From: an uncultured Naasia sp. | GTDB lineage: Bacteria; Actinomycetota; Actinomycetes; Actinomycetales; Microbacteriaceae | Reading direction: 5' to 3' | Length of the DNA stretch: 59,738 nt | Assembly: GCA_913778905.1 (NCBI GenBank) | Contig: CAJYYA010000003.1 | Location: 1 to 59,738, forward strand | In this document: positions 3,051 to 59,447 of the stretch, in pieces | How positions within the stretch are numbered: position 1 is the first letter of the stretch | Layout: each line of letters begins with the position of its first letter | The notes under the pieces: generated by a model | The model's input: only the letters and a program-made list of their open reading frames with translations | What the model was told of the DNA's origin: nothing | Database searches by the model: none | Translations under genes and position numbers: made by a program

Positions 3051-3300
3051 CCTTCATTTCGCTGCGCTCAATGGGCGGGCGGCCCGCCCGTTGAGCGAAG
3101 CGAAACGCAGGGCCCAGGACCGCGCCGCCCGGGGCGCTTCGCGACGGTCGCAGAGCGACCTCCTCAGCGACCGGAAGAAGGGGCCACCACCACCCGCTCG
3201 TTGAGGAGGGCCGCCAGGCCCGTCGCGAAACGAGCACGGCATAGCGGGCTCCGGATGCCGCACCCAGCCCTTCATTTCGCTGCGCTCAATGGGCGGGTGG
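3051..3300. repeat. two intergenic inverted-repeat families (A and B), tandem block
   Basis: The gap between the GDPD gene and gltX is filled with repeats. Type A (core TTTCGCTKCGCTCAATGGGC) occurs at 3051-3080, inverted at 3082-3113 and again direct at 3268-3300, ending against the GDPD stop codon. Type B (core CGACGGTCGCAGAGCGAC, 3134-3172) is paired with an inverted relative containing GTTGAGGAGGGCCGCCAGGC (3196-3235). Both pairs can form long hairpins. The same two families recur near 53.5-53.8 kb and type A near 45.3 kb, so they are dispersed elements, probably acting at mRNA 3' ends. Confidence 0.8.
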
Positions 3301-4098
3301 TCAGCCGGCGGCGGATCCGAGTTCGGAGCGGAGGGCGCCCGGGCGGTCGGTGGTCAGCTGGCGGATGCCGAGGTCGAGACAGAAGCGCGCGTCCTCCAAT
3401 GTGTTGACCGTCCAGACGCGCACCGGTCGCTCACTCGCCCACCTGCGCGCTGTCGACGGGTCCGCGCGGACGGCCTCGATCCCCGGCCCCAGGGCGACAG
3501 CGATGTCGGACAGAAGACCCGAGCGCGCAATGGCTGGGTCTGCGTCCGCGTCGAGCAGGAGCATCGCGACACCGAAGCCGACGCGCGAGGCAACGAACAC
3601 GATCGTGGGTGGCCAGAAGCTCATGATGTCGACGGTGACCGGATGCGGGCCCGACCCGATGATTCCGGTCGAGGGGTCCCAGCCGGCCCGCTGGAGCAGG
3701 GCGAGAACCGCGTCGTCGAGCACTGCACCGGCGGGGCTCGGCTGTTTGATCTCGAGCGCCAACCGCACGGGACGGCCCGCCGATCCCAGCAGAGAGAGCA
3801 GGTCCTGGAGCGTCATCAGCTCATCGGGCCCGCCCGGCATCCGGGACCGCATCTCGTGGATCGTGAGCTCGTGGACGATCCCGGGCACGCCCGAGACCCG
3901 ATCGGTCGTGCTGTCGTGCCAGCACACGACCGTCCCGTCACCGGTGAGCCGCACGTCCGTCTCGACTCCGTCGGCGCCCTCGTCGAGCGCCGCCGAATAG
4001 GCCGATCGGCTGTGCTCGACGTGGTCGGCGCTCGCACCGCGATGCCCGAAGATGAGCACGTCGTCGACGCCGGAATATACCGGCGCCGCCTCGCTCAT
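3301..4098 (-). CDS. glycerophosphodiester phosphodiesterase
   Basis: A 265-residue GDPD-family TIM-barrel enzyme that hydrolyses deacylated phospholipid diesters to glycerol-3-phosphate and an alcohol. The family motifs are clear: FGHRGAS near the N-terminus (catalytic His-Arg), then GVETDVRLTGDGTVVCWHD carrying the metal-binding Glu and Asp and the second His. There is no signal peptide, so it is probably cytoplasmic. The ATG is chosen because it overlaps the stop of the upstream FAH-family gene as ATGA. Its 3' end abuts a type A repeat. Confidence 0.9.
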   Translation of the reverse strand: MSEAAPVYSGVDDVLIFGHRGASADHVEHSRSAYSAALDEGADGVETDVRLTGDGTVVCWHDSTTDRVSGVPGIVHELTIHEMRSRMPGGPDELMTLQDLLSLLGSAGRPVRLALEIKQPSPAGAVLDDAVLALLQRAGWDPSTGIIGSGPHPVTVDIMSFWPPTIVFVASRVGFGVAMLLLDADADPAIARSGLLSDIAVALGPGIEAVRADPSTARRWASERPVRVWTVNTLEDARFCLDLGIRQLTTDRPGALRSELGSAAG

Positions 4099-48250: not shown

Positions 48251-48801
48251 TTCTCGCCTCCCCCGTCGCGCACCGGGTGGGGCGCGCCGCCCGGCCCCAT
48301 CGGCTGGTCCTCGGGCATCTTCTCCCCGGGCTGCGCTGCGGTTGTAGGCGCGTCGAGGTCGACGGCGCCCTCGACCGCCGCGTCGGCACGTGTGCCGAAC
48401 TCGGTGTCGTCCTCGTCGGCCACGGGGGTCTCGGACTCGGCGCCACCCGAGGTGAGGAGGTTGACGTCGTCCGGGTCGACCACGAGCACGTCCTCGCGCG
48501 CGAGGCGCCACGACCGGTAGACCAGGGCCATGAGGAACGCGGAGACGGCGAAGGTGATGACGATGGCCGTCAGGATCAGGGCCTGCGGGAGCGGGTCGGC
48601 GAACTCCGACGGATCCGTCTCGCCGTCGACGATCGGGGCCGCACCGGGACGCCCCGACATGATCAGCAGCAGGATGTTGGTCGCATTGCCGATGAGCAGG
48701 AAGCCCAGGATGACCCGGGTCATGCTCTTCTCGAGCAGGAGATAGACGCCGCACGCGTAGAGCACGGCCATGGTCACGAGGAGGGCGAGGGAGACGCTCA
48801 T
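48247..48801 (-). CDS. mnhC: Mrp antiporter subunit C
   Basis: 184 residues. The first 110 are the NuoK-like MnhC domain with three helices (YACGVYLLLEKSMTRVILGF, LIGNATNILLL, QALILTAIVITFAVSAFLMA). The last 70 are an acidic, probably disordered cytoplasmic tail, longer than usual for the family. The ATG overlaps the mnhA stop as ATGA. Confidence 0.93.
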   Translation of the reverse strand: MSVSLALLVTMAVLYACGVYLLLEKSMTRVILGFLLIGNATNILLLIMSGRPGAAPIVDGETDPSEFADPLPQALILTAIVITFAVSAFLMALVYRSWRLAREDVLVVDPDDVNLLTSGGAESETPVADEDDTEFGTRADAAVEGAVDLDAPTTAAQPGEKMPEDQPMGPGGAPHPVRDGGGEK

Positions 48802-51719
48802 GCGGTCGTCTCCTTCTGTCGCACGGGTTCGTTCGGATGGGGCGAGAGGGGCGAGTCCTCGCCTTCCTCCTCGTCCTGCTGCCGGTCCACTTCGCCGCCG
48901 AGGCTGCGGAGGACGTCGAGCACGAGACCGATGACGACCAGGTAGACCCCGATGTCGAAGAACGTCGAGGTCACGAACTTGATGCCCCCGAACGGGCCGA
49001 AGTCGGCCTGGAACACCGTCGAGGTGAGCGCGTCCGCCCCGAAGAAGAGCGGGACGGCCGCCGTGCCGACCGCGAAGATGAGCCCACTGCCGAGCAGCGC
49101 ACCCGCGTTGACGGGAGCGGCGGCGGCCAGCTCGATCCGCCCGGCCGCGAGGTAGCGGGCGACGAGGGCGAGCCCCACGACGAGTCCTCCCGCGAAGCCG
49201 CCGCCCGGGGCGTTGTGCCCCGCGATGAGCAGGTAGAGCGAGATGACGATGAGCACGTGGAAGACGAGCCGGACGACGACCTCGAGCAGGATCGACCGGT
49301 TGCGCGGGGCGAGCGTGCGCCCGGCGAGCAGCCACGGGTTGCGCATGTCGTCGACCGAGTCGCCCCCGCGAGAACGGAGACCGGAGATGCCGCGGCCCGA
49401 GCGGCGTGCGAACTCCGGCATGCGGTCGCTCCGGCTGGAGATGAAGACGAGGCTCGCGACACCGGTCGCTGCGGCGATGAGCACGCTCAGCTCGCCCATG
49501 GTGTCCCATCCGCGGATGTCGACCAGGGTCACGTTCACGACGTTGTAGCCCTCGCCGCCGGTCACCGCGAGCTCGGGGAACGCGATGGAGATCGGCTGCG
49601 CCGTGCGAGCTCCGAGGGCCACGACCGCGACGACGGCCATGAGGATGCCCACGGCGCCCCCCAGAACAGCGCGGCCGACGCGGAACTGACTGCCGTTCTG
49701 CTCACCCAGCCGCGCGGGCAGACGTCGGAGGACCAGGACGAAAGCGACGAGCGTCACGAGTTCGACGAGCGTCTGCGTCAGCGCGAGGTCCGGGGCGCCG
49801 TGCATCGCGAAGAGGACGGCCATCCCGAAACCGGTGACGCCGACCAGCACGACGGCCTGGAAGCGCTTGGCGGCGAAGGTCGCGGCGACGGCGGCGACCA
49901 TCATGACGGCGCCGATGACGACCTGATAGGGGCTGTCCCACGGCAGGATCTCATCCGGCCAGTTCTGCACGCGGACGAGAGCGGCTCCGGCGCTCGCGAG
50001 GAGGACGATGAGGATGATCGCCAGGTAGAACGGCAACGATCCGCGCTGGGTGGTGCTGGTGACGAGCGCCGCGAAACGGTCGGTGGTGCGGAGCGTGCCG
50101 CGGTAGGCGTCGGCCGCCATGGTCCGGCGGGGCGACTCCGTGCCGGCGGGCGCCTCCTGCCTGCGGCGCAGCCAGAAGACGAGCAGACCGCCGAGGATCG
50201 TGCCCGCCGAGATGAGGAGAGCCGGCTCGATGCCATGCCAGAGAGCCAGGTGGTAGGGCTTCTCCCCCTCCGACGGAAGCGCATCGGCGGCGGGCGCGAT
50301 GAGCCCATCGATCGCGGAGGAGAAGAGTCCGGCGGCGAGCCCCGCGGCACCGAGCACGACGGGGGCGAGGATGAACGAGGGCTGCTCGCGAAGGACCTTG
50401 ACCTTCTCGACGCCGGGCTTCGAGGAGAACGCACCCCAGACGAACCGCGTCGCGTAGGCCATCGTGAGCACGGACCCGAGGGCCACGCCGACGAGGGCGA
50501 TCCATCCCCAGACATCGCCCGCCTCACCCGCCTCCTGGAGGCTGGTAAGCACGGCCTCCTTCGCGACGAATCCGAAGAGGGGCGGGATGCCCGCCATCGA
50601 TGCGGCCGCGAGGATGCCGGTGACGGCGAGTACCGGCGCCCGGCGACCGAGCCCGGACAACCGCCTGAGGTCTCGCGTGCCGGCACGGTGGTCGATCACG
50701 CCGACGGTCAGGAAGAGCGTCGACTTGAAGAGCGCATGAGCGACGAGCAATGCCAGACCCGCGAGGGCGGTATCGCGTGTGCCGAATCCGACGACCACGG
50801 CCAGGAAGCCGAGCTGGCCGACCGTGCCGTAGGCGAGGAGGAGCTTGAGATCCGTCTCGCGAATGGCCCGCCACCCGCCGATGAGCATCGTCACGACGCC
50901 GAGCGTCACGAGCACCTCGTGCCACCCGGGCGTATCGGCGAAGCCGGGGGCCAGGCGCGCGAGCAGGTAGATGCCCGCCTTGACCATCGCCGCGGCGTGG
51001 AGGTACGCGCTGACCGGGGTCGGGGCCGCCATGGCGCCCGGGAGCCAGAAGTGGAACGGCACGATGGCCGACTTGGTGACGACACCGACGAGGACGAGCA
51101 TGATCGCGACGGTCGTCAGCTGGCCGGTCGGGGCCGTCTCGATGATCGCGGTCAGGTTGCTCGTGCCGCTCTCGGTGGCCAGCAGGACGAAGCCGACGAG
51201 CATCGCCAGGCCGCCGAGGGTCGTGACGAGGAGGGCCTGAAGCGCCGCGGCCCGGCTCGCCCGTCGGCCCGTGTTGTGTCCGACCAGCAGGTAGGAGAAG
51301 ACCGTGGTCAACTCCCAGAACACGAAGAGCAGGTAGACGTCGTCCGCGAGGACCAAGCCGTACATCGATCCGGCGAAGGCCGTGAGGATCGCGGCGAAAC
51401 GGCCGAGACCGGGCTCGTCGTCTTCGAAGTACTTGACGCAGTAGACGAGCACGAGTGCGCCGACGCCGGTCACGACCAGTGTCATGAGCCAGGACAGCGA
51501 GTCCATCCGCAGGTCGAGCGTGAGCCCCAGCTGGGGAACCCACGGCGTCCGCTCCGCGACGGGCGAGCCGTCGAGGACATCGGGGGCGACCATGACGGCC
51601 TGCCCGAAGGCGAGGACAGCCGGGATCGCTCCGACGACGAAGGCCTTGGTACCCAGCTTCTTCACGAGGAAGGGCAGCAGCAGGGCGACGAGGCCGAACG
51701 CGCACAGGAGGATCAGCAT
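48798..51719 (-). CDS. mnhA: Mrp antiporter subunit A fused to subunit B
   Basis: 973 residues. The N-terminal part (about 1-560) is the NuoL-like proton pump (VFWELTTVFSYLLVGHNTGR, PFHFWLPGAMAAPTPVSAYLH, DLKLLLAYGTVGQLGFLAVV). The middle contains the MbhD/E-like domains. The C-terminal part (about 810-950) is the MnhB domain (LYLLIAGHNAPGGGFAGGLV, FVTSTFFDIGVYLVVIGLVL). No separate mnhB gene exists here, so the operon is A+B, C, D, E, F, G. GGAGGAAG precedes the ATG, and TAAAAT (51799-51804) upstream is a plausible -10 for the operon. Roles: sodium and pH homeostasis. Confidence 0.94.
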   Translation of the reverse strand: MLILLCAFGLVALLLPFLVKKLGTKAFVVGAIPAVLAFGQAVMVAPDVLDGSPVAERTPWVPQLGLTLDLRMDSLSWLMTLVVTGVGALVLVYCVKYFEDDEPGLGRFAAILTAFAGSMYGLVLADDVYLLFVFWELTTVFSYLLVGHNTGRRASRAAALQALLVTTLGGLAMLVGFVLLATESGTSNLTAIIETAPTGQLTTVAIMLVLVGVVTKSAIVPFHFWLPGAMAAPTPVSAYLHAAAMVKAGIYLLARLAPGFADTPGWHEVLVTLGVVTMLIGGWRAIRETDLKLLLAYGTVGQLGFLAVVVGFGTRDTALAGLALLVAHALFKSTLFLTVGVIDHRAGTRDLRRLSGLGRRAPVLAVTGILAAASMAGIPPLFGFVAKEAVLTSLQEAGEAGDVWGWIALVGVALGSVLTMAYATRFVWGAFSSKPGVEKVKVLREQPSFILAPVVLGAAGLAAGLFSSAIDGLIAPAADALPSEGEKPYHLALWHGIEPALLISAGTILGGLLVFWLRRRQEAPAGTESPRRTMAADAYRGTLRTTDRFAALVTSTTQRGSLPFYLAIILIVLLASAGAALVRVQNWPDEILPWDSPYQVVIGAVMMVAAVAATFAAKRFQAVVLVGVTGFGMAVLFAMHGAPDLALTQTLVELVTLVAFVLVLRRLPARLGEQNGSQFRVGRAVLGGAVGILMAVVAVVALGARTAQPISIAFPELAVTGGEGYNVVNVTLVDIRGWDTMGELSVLIAAATGVASLVFISSRSDRMPEFARRSGRGISGLRSRGGDSVDDMRNPWLLAGRTLAPRNRSILLEVVVRLVFHVLIVISLYLLIAGHNAPGGGFAGGLVVGLALVARYLAAGRIELAAAAPVNAGALLGSGLIFAVGTAAVPLFFGADALTSTVFQADFGPFGGIKFVTSTFFDIGVYLVVIGLVLDVLRSLGGEVDRQQDEEEGEDSPLSPHPNEPVRQKETTA

Positions 51720-51881: not shown

Positions 51882-52661
51882 TCAGAGCGCCAGAACCCGC
51901 TCGGCGGCCTCTACGAGCGGTCCGGCATAGGAGGCCCCATGCGAGGCCGCGTGCACTGCCAGCGGATGGAGCTGGTGAAGCGGGATGCGCTCGCGCCATC
52001 CCGCGGCGAGCGTGCCGACCGATTCGTAGCCGTCGAACACCGAGTCGAGGTGGGGGCAGCCGAAGAGCGCGAGCATGGCGAGGTCGGTCTCCGCGTGTCC
52101 GCCGTGCGCGGCCGGGTCGATGAGCGCGACGCCGTCGGGCGTCCACAGCACGTTGCCGTTCCAGAGGTCGCCGTGGATGCGCGCGGGAGGGCGGCCGTCA
52201 TCGAAACGCCCCTCGGCGACGATCGCCAAGGCCCGGTCGACGATGTCGGCATCGCGAGTGTCGACGTGACCGCGCTTCACAGCCCGCCGCAGATAGGGCC
52301 GCACCCGCTGATCGGCGTAGAAGCGACCCCATCGGTCGTCCGGTTTCGTCGACATGGGCTGTCGGCCGATGAAAGTGGCGCCGTCCCAGCTCGGGGGTGG
52401 CGAGCCGAAGCCCGCCGCTCCCGCCGCGTGGGTCCGAGCGAGCGCACCCCCGAACGCGCGGGCGGCCGGGGCGGTCGGGCGTGCGCTCGCGAGTCGCTCC
52501 AGCTCGATCCATCCCGGACCGACCCCCTTCACCCCGGCGATCCGGGCTCCGCCGTCGGGCTCCGCTTCGGCGAGCCAGCCGAGGCCCGCGGCCTCCGCTT
52601 CGAAGAAGCCGGCGGGGGCGTCGGCGCGCTCCTTGCGGATGGTTCGTCCGTCGGTCGTCAC
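51882..52661 (-). CDS. fructosamine kinase family protein
   Basis: 259 residues of the fructosamine-3-kinase/APH fold. The catalytic loop RIHGDLWNGNVLW and the metal-binding LIDPAAHGGHAETDLAM are intact. It probably phosphorylates glycated amines or ketosamines for repair or salvage. The GTG at 52661 lacks a Shine-Dalgarno, but TACGGT (52668-52673) lies 6 bases upstream, giving a leaderless start. It is divergent from the isomerase gene at 52726; the two promoters share only 64 bases. Confidence 0.87.
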   Translation of the reverse strand: MTTDGRTIRKERADAPAGFFEAEAAGLGWLAEAEPDGGARIAGVKGVGPGWIELERLASARPTAPAARAFGGALARTHAAGAAGFGSPPPSWDGATFIGRQPMSTKPDDRWGRFYADQRVRPYLRRAVKRGHVDTRDADIVDRALAIVAEGRFDDGRPPARIHGDLWNGNVLWTPDGVALIDPAAHGGHAETDLAMLALFGCPHLDSVFDGYESVGTLAAGWRERIPLHQLHPLAVHAASHGASYAGPLVEAAERVLAL

Positions 52662-52725
52662 CTGTTCACCGTAGGTACTCCGTCCGAGCCCCGGCCGGGA
52701 ACGCATCGCGTCGTAACCTGCCCGC

Positions 52726-53535
52726 GTGATCCGCATCGGCATGAGCACCAGCTGCGTCCACACCCTCCCCGTCGACCGAGCGTTCGCCATCGCGAAGCAG
52801 GCCGGTTTCGACGGGGTGGAGGTCATGGTCACTCACGATCCGGCGACTCGGAACATCAAGTCGCTCCGCGAGCTGTCGGCCCGCTACGACCTGCCCATCC
52901 TGTCGATCCATGCCCCCGTGCTCCTGCTGACGCAGTTCGTGTGGGGAACGGATCCGCACGTCAAGCTGGCTCGCAGCGCCGAGCTCGCAGTCGGGGTGGG
53001 GGCGTCGACCGTCGTCGTGCACCCGCCGTTCCGGTGGCAGCGGCGCACCGCCCGCGGCTTCACCGAGTCGGTGCGGACGCTGTCGCGCGAGTGGGGTATC
53101 GACATCGCGGTGGAGAACATGTTCGCGCCGCGCATCCTCGGGCGCCGGGTCGCGGCGTACTCCCCCGGGTGGAGCCCCGTCGACATGGACTGCGATGCGG
53201 CGACGCTCGACTTCTCGCATGCGTCGCTCGCCGGCGATGACGCTCTCGTCATGGCCGAGCGCCTCGGTTCGCGGCTGCGTCATGTGCATCTCTGCGACGG
53301 ATCCGGCGCGCCGGGCGCGGTATTCGATGAGCACCTGGTTCCGGGCGAGGGCTCCCAGCCGGTAGCGGAGACGCTGCGGCTGCTGGCCGCCACGAGGTGG
53401 AGCGGCTCGGTCGTGGCCGAGGTGCACGCCTCCGGTCCCTCCGCAGCGGACCGTCTCGACATCCTCCACCGCACGCTCGCTTTCGCCCGCGAGCACACCC
53501 GCCTCGAAGCCCCTGCCCCTGCCCCCGGTCGTTGA
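52726..53535 (+). CDS. sugar phosphate isomerase/epimerase-like TIM-barrel protein
   Basis: 269 residues of the xylose-isomerase-like (AP_endonuc_2) barrel: MSTSCVHTLPVDRAFAIAKQ, LPILSIHAPVLLLT, TVVVHPPFRWQ, IAVENMF (metal-binding Glu), DFSHASLAG, and HVHLCDG. A metal-dependent sugar isomerase or epimerase is likely; the substrate is unknown. TAACCT (52714-52719) lies 6 bases before the GTG, so the mRNA is probably leaderless. The TGA stop lies within the first bases of a type B repeat. Confidence 0.85.
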   Translation: MIRIGMSTSCVHTLPVDRAFAIAKQAGFDGVEVMVTHDPATRNIKSLRELSARYDLPILSIHAPVLLLTQFVWGTDPHVKLARSAELAVGVGASTVVVHPPFRWQRRTARGFTESVRTLSREWGIDIAVENMFAPRILGRRVAAYSPGWSPVDMDCDAATLDFSHASLAGDDALVMAERLGSRLRHVHLCDGSGAPGAVFDEHLVPGEGSQPVAETLRLLAATRWSGSVVAEVHASGPSAADRLDILHRTLAFAREHTRLEAPAPAPGR

Positions 53536-53803: not shown

Positions 53804-55822
53804 TTACGCAGCGTGGGCGATCAGACCCAGGGAGCGGGCCGAGCGGCGGTGGGCGACTGCCGCGAAGGTCGCGAGCGCGCCGAGCAGGCCCCAGATGAGC
53901 AGCGGCGCTGCGCCGGCGACGACGTTGCCTCCGCCCGATCCGGTGATGATCGCCTGCATGCCGTTCACCGCGCCCGTCACCGGGAGCAGCGGCGAGATCG
54001 CCCGGAACGGAGCCGACAGCAACTCCACCGGGTAGAGCCCGCCGGTTGCCGTCAGCTGGAGCGCTAGGAACACGAGCGACACCACGTATCCGGCGCGACC
54101 GGCGACGGTCACGAGCGCCCCGTGGATCGCCGCGAACGACAGCGCGATCAGCAACGCGAACGGCAGCGTCGCCGGGAGCGACGACCACGCCACCCCGAGA
54201 GCGCCGTGCAGCAGACCGACGAGCAGCACCGCCTGGATCGCACCGAGTCCGAACGCCCGGCCGAGGGTCTGCCCGACGATCCGCCCGGTTCCGATCGGCG
54301 ACGCGAGGATGCGTCGGCGCGGCCCTCCCAAGACCAGGAACGTGGCGATCGCCCCGACCCACAAGCCAGCAGGGACGAGCAGAGTCGTCGCGATGGTCTT
54401 GACGTCGGACACCTCGTTCTCGCGGGACGTCGTGAGCCCGACCGGGTTGGCGGCGACCTCGGAGATGTCCTTCACCTGGTCGGAGGAGTAATCGGGCACC
54501 TGTTCGGCACCGGAGCGCAGGCCGTTCTCGAGTTGGTTCGCGCCGTCGGCGAGCTGGGACGCTCCGCCGGCGGCGCTGCCGATACCCGTCTGAAGCTGAC
54601 CGAGTCCCCCCGCGAGCTGGTCCGCGCCGCTGACGAGTGCGCTGCTGGCCTCGGACAGCTGAGACGCACCGGACGCGGACTGGGCGACACCGGACTGAAG
54701 CGCGGCAGCCCCCTCGGCGCCCTGAACGAGAGCGTCGTTGCCCTGGGTGATCTGACCGGCACCCGCAGCCGACTGCGCGACGCCGGACTGCAGTGAGGCG
54801 GCACCCTGGGCGCCCTCGACGAGGAAAGGGCTCGCTTGATCGAGCCGATCGAGGCCTGCCGCGATCTCCTCAAGAGCTTCCCGGGTGGCGGGAAGCAGGG
54901 TCGGATCCGCAAGCACCTTCCGGACGCCGTCCGCGCTCCCCGATACACCTGCTGTGTAATCGCGGACCGCGCCGGGCAGAGCCTGCAGTCCGGCCGACTT
55001 CGCCGCCGCATCGGAGAGACCGTCTCGCAGCTGCGCAACCCCTTCGGTGTACTGCCGCACACCACCGGGCAACTGCTGCAGACCGGCCGACTGGCTCGCC
55101 GCCGTCGAGAGGCCGCTGCTCAGCCGGTCCACCCCGTTCGTGTAGTCCCGGAGTCCCGAGGCGAGGGCTCCCGCCCCGGTCTGGGCCGTACCGGTCTGCG
55201 TCGCTGCTTCGGTGAGCCCCGACGCGAGGCTTTGCGCCCCGTTGTCGAGCCCGCCTGCGCCGTCCGCCGCAGTGTTCAAAGAACCGGCGATGGCCCCGGT
55301 TCCGCCGACCAGCCCTGCGATGTACTGCTGCGACAGCTGCGTGCCGAAGATCGCGGCGAGACCGCCGCCCAGCGCGTCGGTCAGGGGGCCGGTCAGGTAG
55401 CCGTGGGCGTCGTCGGTCTTCAGCGAGATGTGCGCCTGCACCGGATTGTCGGAGCCGAGCGAGACGACCGAGGCGGAGAAGTCCTTCGGGATCGTGATGA
55501 CGGCGTAGACCTCACCGTCGGCGAGCGCTGCGGCGGCCTCGTCGGCTCCGGTGACCTGCCAGTCGAAGGCGGATCCGGCGGGTCCGGCGCTCGAGTCGGA
55601 CCCCGTCAGCGCGGTGACGAGCAGCCGTCCGGCGAGGACGGGCGTGGTGGTGCCGTCGGCCTGCGTCCGCTGCACCATCTCGTCCTGGTTGACGATCGCG
55701 GCGGGCACCCGGGCATCGTCGCTGCCGACCGCGGACAATGCGCCCGCGAACAGGCCGACGACGGCCAATGGGACGATGGCCAGCCCGACGAGGGCAACCC
55801 AGCGGCGAGGTGAGCGGGTCAT
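53804..55822 (-). CDS. YhgE/Pip-family membrane protein (ABC-2-like)
   Basis: 672 residues: one N-terminal membrane helix (about 8-30), a large extracytoplasmic part, and about five C-terminal helices (about 470-650) of the ABC-2 permease type (AGRAGYVVSLVFLALQLTAT, GGLYPVELL). The extracytoplasmic part (about 160-450) holds degenerate Ser/Ala/Gly/Gln repeats (ALQSGVAQSA, QLADGANQL and similar) predicted to form long coiled coils, as in YhgE, phage-infection protein and EsaA-like proteins. The ATG overlaps the MMPL gene stop as ATGA, so it is made with that transporter. The substrate is unknown; lipid or polymer export is possible. Confidence 0.88.
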   Translation of the reverse strand: MTRSPRRWVALVGLAIVPLAVVGLFAGALSAVGSDDARVPAAIVNQDEMVQRTQADGTTTPVLAGRLLVTALTGSDSSAGPAGSAFDWQVTGADEAAAALADGEVYAVITIPKDFSASVVSLGSDNPVQAHISLKTDDAHGYLTGPLTDALGGGLAAIFGTQLSQQYIAGLVGGTGAIAGSLNTAADGAGGLDNGAQSLASGLTEAATQTGTAQTGAGALASGLRDYTNGVDRLSSGLSTAASQSAGLQQLPGGVRQYTEGVAQLRDGLSDAAAKSAGLQALPGAVRDYTAGVSGSADGVRKVLADPTLLPATREALEEIAAGLDRLDQASPFLVEGAQGAASLQSGVAQSAAGAGQITQGNDALVQGAEGAAALQSGVAQSASGASQLSEASSALVSGADQLAGGLGQLQTGIGSAAGGASQLADGANQLENGLRSGAEQVPDYSSDQVKDISEVAANPVGLTTSRENEVSDVKTIATTLLVPAGLWVGAIATFLVLGGPRRRILASPIGTGRIVGQTLGRAFGLGAIQAVLLVGLLHGALGVAWSSLPATLPFALLIALSFAAIHGALVTVAGRAGYVVSLVFLALQLTATGGLYPVELLSAPFRAISPLLPVTGAVNGMQAIITGSGGGNVVAGAAPLLIWGLLGALATFAAVAHRRSARSLGLIAHAA

Positions 55823-58692
55823 GACAGCACCGGCTTCCGATCGGATTCGATGAGGGTGAGAGGGCGCCCGGCGCGGAGGATGACCGAGCTGGCGCGAGTG
55901 ACGCCGACGAGCACGGTGACGTGCGCCGGCACGAGGGTGTCGACGAGACGCACCTGACGTTCGAGTTCCTCGCCGACGGCGTCGCCCAGGTCGATGACGA
56001 GAACCGAGGCCCCCGACGCGAGAGCGAGAGCGACACCCGCCGCGACGCGACCGTCGGGATGCAGGGTGCCGGCGAGGGTGTCGGAGCCGAAACCCTCTCC
56101 CCCGCCGTCGACGACGGCCCGTGAGGCGCGTGCGACGAGCGCATCCGTGCCGCTCCGACGACGCGGGGCGCCGAACACCGAGCCGGCGAGCGTGAAACGC
56201 TCACGAATGAGGTCGCCGACCCGCTCCCCCGCGTCGGCACCCACCGCGTCGGGGTCGACCACGGCGACCGATCTGGCCACGTGCCCGGCGTCGCTCGGGA
56301 GCGGCCGGCCCTGGACCTGAGCCCGCCCGGAGACGGGCTCGGCCCGTCCGGCGAGAACAGCCGCCAGACCGCGCCGCGCGGAGTCGTCCGCCGACAGCAG
56401 CGCGAATCCGCCCGCGGGAACCTGGAGATCGAAGGCGCGATCCGATCCGGGAACCACGAGCTGCTCGGCGCTGATCCCGGCCCCGCCCTGTTCCTCGGCC
56501 CACTCGACACCTTCGCGGTGCGCTCCCAGGCTTTCGCCTTCGATGTCGACGTTCGGCAGCACGCGTCCGAGCCACTTCGGCAGATACCAGGCATGCCGCC
56601 CGGCAAGCGCCATCGCCGCGGGCACGAGCGTCATCCGCACGAGGAACGCGTCGAAGAACACGCCCGCTGCGAGACCGAACGCGATGGCCTTGATGACACC
56701 GGCCCCCTCGGGGACGAACGCGAAGAAGACGAAGAACATGATGAGCGCCGCCGCCGTCACGACGCGGGCCGCATGCGAGAAGCCCGCCTCCACCGACTGT
56801 CGCGCACGGCCGGTGCGTACGAACTCCTCGCGCATCCCGCTAACGAGGAACACCTCATAGTCCATCGCGAGGCCGAACAGCACCGCGATCAGGATGATCG
56901 GCAAAAAGCTCAGAATCGGATTCGGCTCGACGTGGATGAGATCCGCGCCGTATCCGAACTGGAACACCAGAACCGTCGCACCGAACGAGCCGACCAGGGA
57001 GAGCACGAATCCGAGAGCCGCCTTGAGCGGCACGAAGAGCGACCGGAACACCATCATGAGCAGCAGGACGGAAAGCCCGACGACGATCGCAGCGAACGGG
57101 ATCAGCGCGTTCTGCAGCGTGCTCGAGATGTCGACGGCGACCGCAGTCGCCCCCGTCACCTGGATGGGCGTCTTGTAGTCGGCCGCTATCGACGGCTCGA
57201 GCTCTCGGATCCGCTCGACCAGGGCCGTCGTCGCCGGATCCGTCGGTCCGCTCTTCGGGATGACCTGGATGATCGCGGTGTCGACGGTCGGATTCGGGAT
57301 GCCGCGGCCGACCGCCGATACGTCGTCGAGCCCGGCGATCCGGTCGCCGATCTTCTCGAGGTCGCCCAGCGGATCGGTCGTCTGCGTGATATCGACGAGC
57401 ACGATGAGCGGGCCGTTGCGACCGGCGCCGAACGAGTCCGCGACGATGTCGTAGGCCGCCCTCTGAGTGGTGCCCTTCGGATCCTGGCCGTTGTCGGGCA
57501 GGCCGAGCTGCAGCTGGCTGGCGGGCAGTGCGAGCGCTCCGAGGACACCGACCACGAGGATGACGGGAACGATCGGCGCCTTGAGGACGAGACGCACCCA
57601 ACGGGTGCCGAGCGAGGGCTTCCCGCCGTCCGCCCCCGGCTGCTGCGCGAGCGCACGGCGGTGCGCGCGTCCGCCTGCCTTCGGTGCGAGGCGCGCCTTG
57701 GCAAGGCCGAGGATCGCCGGGAGCAGGGTCACCGAGGCGAGAACGGCCACCAGGACGGCGACCGCCGCGGTGACGCCCATGACCGAGAGGAACGGGATCC
57801 CTACGACCAGCAGACCGAGCAGCGCGATGATCACAGTGAGCCCGGCGAAGACGACGGCGCTGCCGGAGGTCGCGATCGCGGTTCCCGCCGACGTTCTCGG
57901 ATCCATCCCGGTCGCGAGCTGGTTGCGGTGGCGAGACACGATGAAGAGCGAGTAGTCGATGCCGACGGCGAGGCCGATCATCAGGGCGAGCAACGGAGCC
58001 GTCGTGGACACCGCCGTGAATGCCGATGTGATGAGCACGACGGCCATCGCGATCCCCACGCCCGCCAACGCGATGATGAGCGGCATCCCCGCGGCGAGCA
58101 GCGATCCGAACGTGATGATGAGCACCACGGCCGCGAAGATCACGCCGAACAGCTCCACGATCGACAGGCCGACGCTGGTCTCCTGCAGTACCTGACCGGC
58201 GAACTCGACCGTGAGGCCTGCGCCTTCACCGATGGAGGCCGTTTGCTTGATCTCGTCGACCAGCTCAGGAGTGACCTGATCCGATTGATCGGCGAGAGTC
58301 ACCTGCACGATTGCGACGCGCTTGTCGCCGGATACCGAGTTGACCGCGTACTCCGAGAACGGATCGACGGCCGACTCGACGCCGCCGATGTCTCTGGCGG
58401 CCTTCACCGTGTCCTCGATGGCGGGCCGGTACGTGTCGCTCGTGATGTCGTCGCCCTCAGGGGCCTGCAGCACAATCTGGATGTTGGCTCCCGCCGTCTG
58501 CGGGAAGACGGCGGCGAGTTTGTCGATGGCCTGCTGCGACTCCGTGCCCGGGATCACGTACGAGTTCTTCAGTGTGCCGCCGAGACTGAGCGCACCGGCG
58601 CCGAGCGCGGCGAGGATCAGCACCCAGGTGACGATGACGCGCCACGGCCGGTGGTAGGTCCAGAGACCGATGCGGTAGAGCAGGGTTGCCAT
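55819..58692 (-). CDS. MMPL/RND transporter fused to a degenerate ABC-ATPase-like domain
   Basis: 957 residues. About 1-735 is a complete MMPL exporter: two sets of helices, two extracytoplasmic loops, with GLAVGIDYSLFIVSRHRNQL and FGLAMDYEVFLVSGMREEF at the proton-relay positions. About 755-957 follows the order of an ABC nucleotide-binding domain but without catalytic residues. GGFALLSADDSARRGLAAVL stands for Walker A with no Lys, then SGRAQVQG, and DGRVAAGVALALASGASVLV followed by IDLGDA stands for signature plus Walker B with no Glu. The partner YhgE/Pip gene overlaps it. GAGGAA precedes the ATG. Confidence 0.88.
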   Translation of the reverse strand: MATLLYRIGLWTYHRPWRVIVTWVLILAALGAGALSLGGTLKNSYVIPGTESQQAIDKLAAVFPQTAGANIQIVLQAPEGDDITSDTYRPAIEDTVKAARDIGGVESAVDPFSEYAVNSVSGDKRVAIVQVTLADQSDQVTPELVDEIKQTASIGEGAGLTVEFAGQVLQETSVGLSIVELFGVIFAAVVLIITFGSLLAAGMPLIIALAGVGIAMAVVLITSAFTAVSTTAPLLALMIGLAVGIDYSLFIVSRHRNQLATGMDPRTSAGTAIATSGSAVVFAGLTVIIALLGLLVVGIPFLSVMGVTAAVAVLVAVLASVTLLPAILGLAKARLAPKAGGRAHRRALAQQPGADGGKPSLGTRWVRLVLKAPIVPVILVVGVLGALALPASQLQLGLPDNGQDPKGTTQRAAYDIVADSFGAGRNGPLIVLVDITQTTDPLGDLEKIGDRIAGLDDVSAVGRGIPNPTVDTAIIQVIPKSGPTDPATTALVERIRELEPSIAADYKTPIQVTGATAVAVDISSTLQNALIPFAAIVVGLSVLLLMMVFRSLFVPLKAALGFVLSLVGSFGATVLVFQFGYGADLIHVEPNPILSFLPIILIAVLFGLAMDYEVFLVSGMREEFVRTGRARQSVEAGFSHAARVVTAAALIMFFVFFAFVPEGAGVIKAIAFGLAAGVFFDAFLVRMTLVPAAMALAGRHAWYLPKWLGRVLPNVDIEGESLGAHREGVEWAEEQGGAGISAEQLVVPGSDRAFDLQVPAGGFALLSADDSARRGLAAVLAGRAEPVSGRAQVQGRPLPSDAGHVARSVAVVDPDAVGADAGERVGDLIRERFTLAGSVFGAPRRRSGTDALVARASRAVVDGGGEGFGSDTLAGTLHPDGRVAAGVALALASGASVLVIDLGDAVGEELERQVRLVDTLVPAHVTVLVGVTRASSVILRAGRPLTLIESDRKPVLS

Positions 58693-58796: not shown

Positions 58797-59447
58797 TCAA
58801 CCCGCGTGCGCGGGTTCGGGGGACGTGTGGCTCTCCGATGGAGCCGACAGCGGGCGGACGGCCAGCACCTCTCCTCCCGCCGAGCGGACGGCGGGAGGAA
58901 TCGGCGCGAGGAGCTGCGTGATGCTCACGACGAGAGCGGAGCGGATCTCCTCCTCCGGTACCGGGTCCGTGGTCGGCGCGAACGCACGGGTGGCGGCGAC
59001 CAGGTAGGCCGCGCCCCCGAGGGCCATACCGAAGCGCACCCGACCCTCGACGGTCGGGATCCCGGCATCCGCGAGGCCCGCGAGGCGCTCGACGAGCTGA
59101 TTCGCGCGCCCGATCGCGCCGACGTTGCCGAGCGCCTGACCCTGGCCGATGAAGATGTGCAGTTCAGCACCGTGCTCGAGGACGAAGTCGACGAAGGCGG
59201 CGACGAACGTCGCGTGCCCGTCCTCCCCCGCGGGGGCGAAGCCGTCGATGATCGCGTGCAGCTTCTCAACGGCGGGAGTCACCGCGGCGTCGAGTAGCGC
59301 CTCCTTCGAGGCGTAGTGGTAGAGCACGCTCGACTTCGACATCCCCGCTTCCTCGGCGATGGAGCCGAGCGACGCTCCCGCGAACCCCACCGTGGAGAAC
59401 TGCTCCAGAGCGATGCGGCGAAGGTCGTCGGCTGTGGTGTTGGGCAC
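58797..59447 (-). CDS. TetR-family transcriptional regulator
   Basis: 216 residues. The N-terminal helix-turn-helix is typical (FAGASLGSIAEEAGMSKSSV followed by LYHYASKEALLDA); the rest is the ligand-binding dimer domain, with a polar tail. It is located 104 bases upstream of the MMPL gene on the same strand and is its likely repressor. The GTG has no Shine-Dalgarno. TAAAGT (59454-59459) lies 6 bases upstream, so the transcript is leaderless. Two palindromic operators follow directly upstream, suggesting autorepression. Confidence 0.92.
   Translation of the reverse strand: MPNTTADDLRRIALEQFSTVGFAGASLGSIAEEAGMSKSSVLYHYASKEALLDAAVTPAVEKLHAIIDGFAPAGEDGHATFVAAFVDFVLEHGAELHIFIGQGQALGNVGAIGRANQLVERLAGLADAGIPTVEGRVRFGMALGGAAYLVAATRAFAPTTDPVPEEEIRSALVVSITQLLAPIPPAVRSAGGEVLAVRPLSAPSESHTSPEPAHAG

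Follow-up and report, generated by a model that had tools for sequence, protein, structure and literature searches.

The window, a stretch of 59,738 nucleotides from an uncultured Naasia sp., encodes an MMPL-family RND pump that carries a degenerate ABC domain at its C-terminus and is followed directly by a YhgE/Pip gene. This tail is most likely the ATPase subunit of YhgE/Pip itself, which, we infer, was captured by the pump and inactivated. The reading preferred here, with a probability of roughly 0.6, is that a YhgE/Pip ABC-2-type system once used the tail as its nucleotide-binding subunit and that, fused to MMPL and stripped of ATPase activity, it now acts as a non-catalytic adaptor.

The MMPL gene (55819..58692, minus strand) is an intact reading frame, running from 58692 to 55819, that codes for 957 aa and matches PF03176 at 1.1e-84. 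Its stop codon shares four bases, ATGA (55819..55822, minus strand), with the start of the YhgE/Pip gene (53804..55822, minus strand, 672 aa). The YhgE/Pip protein scores above both family cut-offs, 100.6 against 96.15 bits for TIGR03061 and 137.5 against 102.2 bits for TIGR03062, and its C-terminal membrane part is of the ABC-2 type, with a Pfam ABC2_membrane_3 match of 3.9e-19. Upstream of the MMPL gene lies a TetR-family regulator (58797..59447, minus strand; TetR_N, 2.1e-11), presumed from strand and spacing to be the first gene of the operon. Three further frames were read by eye, and we take them to be like a sugar-phosphate isomerase (52726-53535, plus strand), a fructosamine kinase or phosphotransferase (51882-52832, minus strand) and an MrpA-type antiporter subunit (48798-51719, minus strand).

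Residues 1-703 (56584..58692, minus strand) form the RND body. PF03176 covers two stretches of the protein, that is, the MMPL domain is present twice (Pfam). Two Asp-Tyr pairs, D246-Y247 and D611-Y612, are invariant in all 28 aligned rows and presumably correspond to the proton relay of MmpL3. The full-length model (pLDDT 87.2, pTM 0.80) has MmpL3 as its best PDB matches (Foldseek, 1.1e-32) and has at the C-terminus a helical linker leading into a well-folded domain. The RND body, the MmpL3 matches and the Asp-Tyr pairs thus resemble the MMPL/HAE2 RND transporters of the MmpL3 type, whereas the degenerate ABC tail, with a YhgE/Pip neighbour in every judged tailed locus, sets the protein apart from them.

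The C-terminal region (residues 704-957, 254 aa; 55822..56583, minus strand) begins with a linker, LPKWL...DIEGE, that is common to tail-less MMPLs; the degenerate ABC domain follows from about residue 738. In Pfam the whole 957-aa protein matched MMPL only and the tail alone matched nothing, and an NCBIfam search with the window tail alone was likewise empty. Profiles were needed for the ABC reading because these single-sequence searches of the tail found nothing and would by themselves have left it as an unknown domain. A profile of 61 tails matched PDB ABC domains with an E value of 2.5e-16 (ABCA3), and one built from 19 long window-type tails matched EcfA1 (PDB) at 1.8e-8. Taken singly, 9 of the 61 tails matched Pfam ABC_tran at E values up to 1, the best at 3.7e-8. 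Structure prediction, which the first-pass annotation had proposed as a check, gave an ABC fold for the tail (AlphaFold, pLDDT 89.1, pTM 0.85); the best 50 PDB matches listed for this model are all ABC systems by title (Foldseek, E 1.8e-10 to 3.8e-9). The predicted elements follow the ABC order. Strands 35-43, 50-56 and 60-64 (tail numbering) lead to a two-residue turn at the place of the P-loop and a helix, 67-77. A helical insert comes next, then a helix after the signature position (176-189) and the Walker-B strand (194-198).

The catalytic motifs have been lost from this fold. The former Walker A or P-loop, placed by the alignment and the turn in the model, is SADDSARR (residues 767-774; 56371..56394, minus strand), which has no Gly-rich loop and no Lys and does not match the Walker A pattern GxxxxGK[ST]. 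The canonical ABC signature motif is LSGGQ. At the signature position, located by alignment and model, the window tail has LHPDGR in place of LSGGQR (residues 877-882; 56047..56064, minus strand), with the Leu of this position invariant in all 19 long tails aligned. The Walker-B strand, VLVID (residues 897-901; 55990..56004, minus strand; alignment and model), continues as VLVIDLGDA, in which the Asp is kept and the catalytic Glu is missing; this Asp is invariant in alignment A2 and present in at least 90% of the 61 tails of alignment A1. The H-loop His is also missing, the last core strand reading VTVLVGVTRASS (by eye, at a position taken from the model). The motifs quoted in the first-pass annotation, SGRAQVQG, a signature-like position (LHPDGR) and VLVID without the Glu, are all there. 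Its claim that the MMPL protein ends in an ABC-like, catalytically dead domain holds: profiles, predicted fold and motif losses agree, and on these grounds the window tail is confirmed as an ABC nucleotide-binding domain that has degenerated and lost its catalytic motifs.

Related tails were collected from 158 assessable MMPL loci, 119 of which have an ABC-like tail. With the tail profile none of the 119 scores below 94.7 bits, and 58 of these tails are outside the set from which it was built. The tail is at least 245 aa long in 36 and shorter in 83; in the alignment rows shown the short tails lack the helical subdomain, and their docking therefore cannot quite match that of a normal ABC domain. 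A strict Walker A, G....GK[ST], is kept in nine tails (for example GPSGSGKT in L178-L180) and requires four changes on the tree of MMPL bodies. Five long Walker-A-bearing tails (L177-L180 and L185) have by eye an intact P-loop, a LSRLERK-like signature and VDDxD at Walker B, with no H-loop, and from these motifs they read like half-way forms. A loose [TS]H pattern for the H-loop His, which is not position-specific, was found in 11 of the 119. With Walker A and the Walker-B Asp kept in some tails, some relatives could bind nucleotide. The tail might then serve in regulation or sensing, for the MMPL pump alone or for both proteins, as a former nucleotide switch that in the window branch answers to another signal or is constitutive. 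Nine strict P-loops and the widely conserved Asp speak for such a role. It is nevertheless unlikely, given that strict Walker A has been lost from 110 of the 119 tails, the window's included, that the catalytic-Glu pattern is matched by none, and that the signature is in place in none, the lone LSGG-like match (L065) being off position.

The tail and YhgE/Pip go together. The sample of loci was not random: 80 were taken as the top matches of the window protein, and a further 80 regions were hand-picked from match listings with long matches favoured. In this sample YhgE/Pip lies directly downstream on the same strand in 118/118 ABC-tailed loci with readable downstream DNA, and behind 0 of the 39 MMPLs that have no ABC-like tail (YhgE and ABC neighbours scored with a 27-sequence ABC profile). 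On the question raised earlier, whether other MMPL-ABC-like fusions also adjoin YhgE/Pip, no fusion lacking YhgE/Pip was found among the 118 judged in this non-random sample. The 158 loci divide into the 118 with tail and YhgE/Pip, 36 with a tail below 100 aa and no YhgE/Pip (16 Streptomyces and one Cohnella among them; for one, L166, just 1355 bases downstream were available), and four whose tail is long and behind which no YhgE/Pip was seen (L126, L189, L190 and L195). L126 has an ABC-like tail on a contig that ends 88 bases past the gene, so that its downstream region is not readable. The other three, which have no YhgE/Pip, carry long tails that look by eye like repeated beta-sandwich or carboxypeptidase-regulatory-like domains, and their only match to the tail profile lies in the linker that MMPLs have in common, at profile positions 1-26. 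There were 163 rows in all; left out of the 158 were L007, whose gene is cut by the contig end, L115 and L116, MMPL paralogues of the window genome taken for other purposes, and L003 and L010. These last two, in which the MMPL gene is split between frames, come from a Microbacteriaceae MAG and a Clavibacter genome. Two identical pairs, L004/L117 and L060/L149, are each counted twice.

In the 118 loci the YhgE N-domain starts 0-114 bases after the end of the MMPL frame, and an ATGA-type overlap (ATGA, GTGA or TTGA) is present in 94. Tail and YhgE change together in three of three independent contrasts (p 0.25). The association of tail and YhgE/Pip in this sample is strict and phylogenetically thin. 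It bears on a second alternative, in which the tail solely assembles or stabilises MMPL subunits by homo-oligomerisation and YhgE works separately. A well-folded domain behind a helical linker would suit that role, but the absence of YhgE behind all 39 MMPLs that lack an ABC-like tail, together with the paired changes in the contrasts, makes it about as improbable as a sensing domain.

Sequence divergence was compared between tail and pump body in close pairs of loci. In the 23 non-identical pairs among 25 listed (81 in all; pairs overlap), tail dN/dS is 0.09-0.61, and in 22 of them it is higher than in the MMPL body; by this measure the tail is under purifying selection and is constrained less than the pump body. 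That the fusion is a relic drifting to loss with no present function is the least probable of the alternatives: the faster tail, the lost motifs and the shortness of most tails would fit it, but dN/dS is below 1 in every non-identical listed pair and the tail is present in all 118 YhgE-linked loci counted.

The preferred reading, a captured YhgE/Pip subunit, draws on YhgE/Pip genes located away from MMPL. The first-pass annotation had supposed that YhgE/Pip lacks an ATPase of its own. This calls for correction: immediately upstream of its paralogues elsewhere, and in the same orientation, there is a degenerate standalone ABC gene in 20/20 fetched same-class loci, as found with a partner profile iterated on the same 20 loci. 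An ordinary-ABC profile detected 14 of these partners and Pfam ABC_tran 13. The 20 belong to 27 YhgE matches above the cut-off, of which four are MMPL-linked and three are others; in G021, among these three, a partner match lies just upstream on the same strand. The partner frame ends 38-92 bases before the YhgE N-domain in the 20 loci. None of the 20 has GK[ST] (by eye); partners in the seven f37 genomes have GSGRT or GTGRT, and the window genome's own partner has nothing recognisable. That partner (L245, G000:C18:37500-50000) lies at about 3148-3741, with a second YhgE/Pip N-domain from 3804. Thus the fusion and a standalone partner coexist in the window genome.

Farther afield, an upstream ABC partner is present in an Amycolatopsis locus (L259). 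None was found at the tandem overlapping YhgE/Pip genes of a Bifidobacterium locus (L258, 5217-10294). The phylum of Cohnella is represented by 14 regions (L255-L257 and L260-L270); the partner occurs in two (L260:2526-3215 and L261:7528-8337) and is missing from 12. In these two partners both Walker A and DEP are intact and LSGGQ is absent; even in them the signature and the H-loop are missing (by eye). Judged by their motifs, they are the least decayed forms seen and the nearest to a working motor.

The tails were compared with these partners and with ordinary ABC domains. Against 27 ordinary domains, all from the window genome, the partners gave the higher profile-profile scores with window-type tails (126.9, E 7.9e-19, vs 87.7, 1.3e-12), with short tails (131.4 vs 90.9) and with Walker-A-bearing tails (245.1 vs 167.0), although with the latter the more decayed half of the partners was level with the ordinary domains (168.0 vs 167.0). 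In searches of 12 genomes with the partner profile, an MMPL tail was the best match in G306 and G423 (3.0e-43 and 7.6e-39), the next matches being at 1.8e-17 and 6.0e-15. Genome G008 also has a tail (L139), but its top match was neither tail nor partner. In the window genome the tail is not among the matches listed while ordinary ABC domains are, and the window tail alone scores 34.6 bits with the partner profile against a median of 36.0 for ordinary ABC domains. The reverse search, with the tail profile, had the partner as top match in just four of six other genomes, and in the window genome the standalone partner is not among the matches listed. A tree separates tails and partners from 22 ordinary ABC domains with an SH-aLRT of 100, on long branches and with the ordinary domains from one genome; neither the tails (two changes) nor the partners (three changes) form a single clade in it. 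As profiles, then, the tails resemble ordinary ABC domains less than they resemble the standalone partners, and the window tail alone does not show this. On the profile, genome-search and tree results, for and against, there is good support at the family level for MMPL having fused with the YhgE partner; for the window the support comes through related tails. The same upstream position of the partners and their likeness as profiles make the tail most likely YhgE/Pip's own ATPase subunit. The earlier suggestion of a hybrid RND-ABC assembly, with the dead domain as a structural link, survives in part: the degenerate ABC domain and the YhgE/Pip neighbour are there, but the tail has the look of an ATPase that once belonged to YhgE/Pip, not of a link from elsewhere.

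A mechanism can be proposed from these features. The pseudo-ABC domain, no longer hydrolysing ATP, would sit on the cytoplasmic side as a non-catalytic adaptor and dock the pump onto the YhgE/Pip permease. Energy would come from the proton gradient by way of the MMPL part, in which both Asp-Tyr pairs are kept. Proton-driven movement of the pump might be coupled to YhgE/Pip and its coiled-coil domain, or might deliver substrate to them. From its topology the large coiled-coil domain presumably lies outside the cell, where it would carry the substrate, probably a lipid, across the wall or relay it. We infer that the MMPL-tail protein and YhgE/Pip are physically coupled. RND and ABC transporters are usually classified apart, each with an energy source of its own. 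It is possible, if somewhat short of an even chance, that the pair represents a new transporter class, in which an ABC-2-type permease swapped its ATPase for a proton-driven RND pump and the dead motor became the clutch. If true, this would show that a transporter has exchanged its power source in nature, and the YhgE/Pip family would gain a partner subunit and with it a testable biochemical role.

Co-variation lends the mechanism weak support. When distances are corrected for the MMPL body (99 loci), those of the tail correlate with the YhgE ABC-2 half (r 0.24) and the YhgE N-domain (0.14), and with TetR at 0.01 (p 0.37). TetR itself co-varies with YhgE given MMPL (0.33 for the N-domain, 0.16 for the ABC-2 half), so such correlations need no contact.

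The lipid substrate of the pair is a guess by analogy, prompted by the likeness to MmpL3 and by a cholesterol response. In Saccharopolyspora hirsuta on cholesterol, an account of expression in PMC9782250 has the YhgE/Pip gene F1721_04135 up 3.82-fold and the MMPL gene F1721_04140 up 3.33-fold. Their locus tags are five apart. A tailed MMPL with YhgE/Pip was seen in two other Saccharopolyspora loci (L053 and L061).

Among known systems, the window's downstream gene belongs with the YhgE/Pip family (TIGR03061/TIGR03062; TC 9.B.74) by both cut-offs, and differs from it in being paired with an RND-fused pseudo-ABC domain. A passage in PMC3924187 includes putative ABC-2 transport proteins among the PIP homologues, and one in PMC4999554 describes the YhgE/Pip domain as without known function, with some members serving as phage receptors, and notes a likeness of YhgE/PIP to EsaA of type VII secretion. 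The N-terminal part of the window YhgE matches the EsaA model TIGR03929 at 2.3e-6, far below the cut-off; unlike EsaA, the window YhgE/Pip is paired with an MMPL-pseudoABC protein. There is also a likeness to DrrAB-type ABC-2 exporters: the C-terminus of the window YhgE matches DrrB weakly (8.3e-5) and the L260 partner matches DrrA best (7.4e-21), both far below cut-off. In contrast to those exporters, no catalytic motif is complete in the window tail, and the L260 and L261 partners are without signature and H-loop. Searches of the open-licence PMC literature turned up no paper on an ABC-tailed MMPL and none that assigns YhgE/Pip an ABC subunit.

A plasmid search with the MMPL-tail protein returned 241 records, none covering 80% of the protein. 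Ordinary ABC ATPase genes were considered as neighbours of tailed MMPLs and set aside, since they occur at only nine of 119 loci in the fetched DNA, 3.3-7.7 kb away. At L115:8555-9466, the tail-less MMPL paralogue of the window genome has an ABC transporter ATPase gene about 1.3 kb downstream on the same strand.
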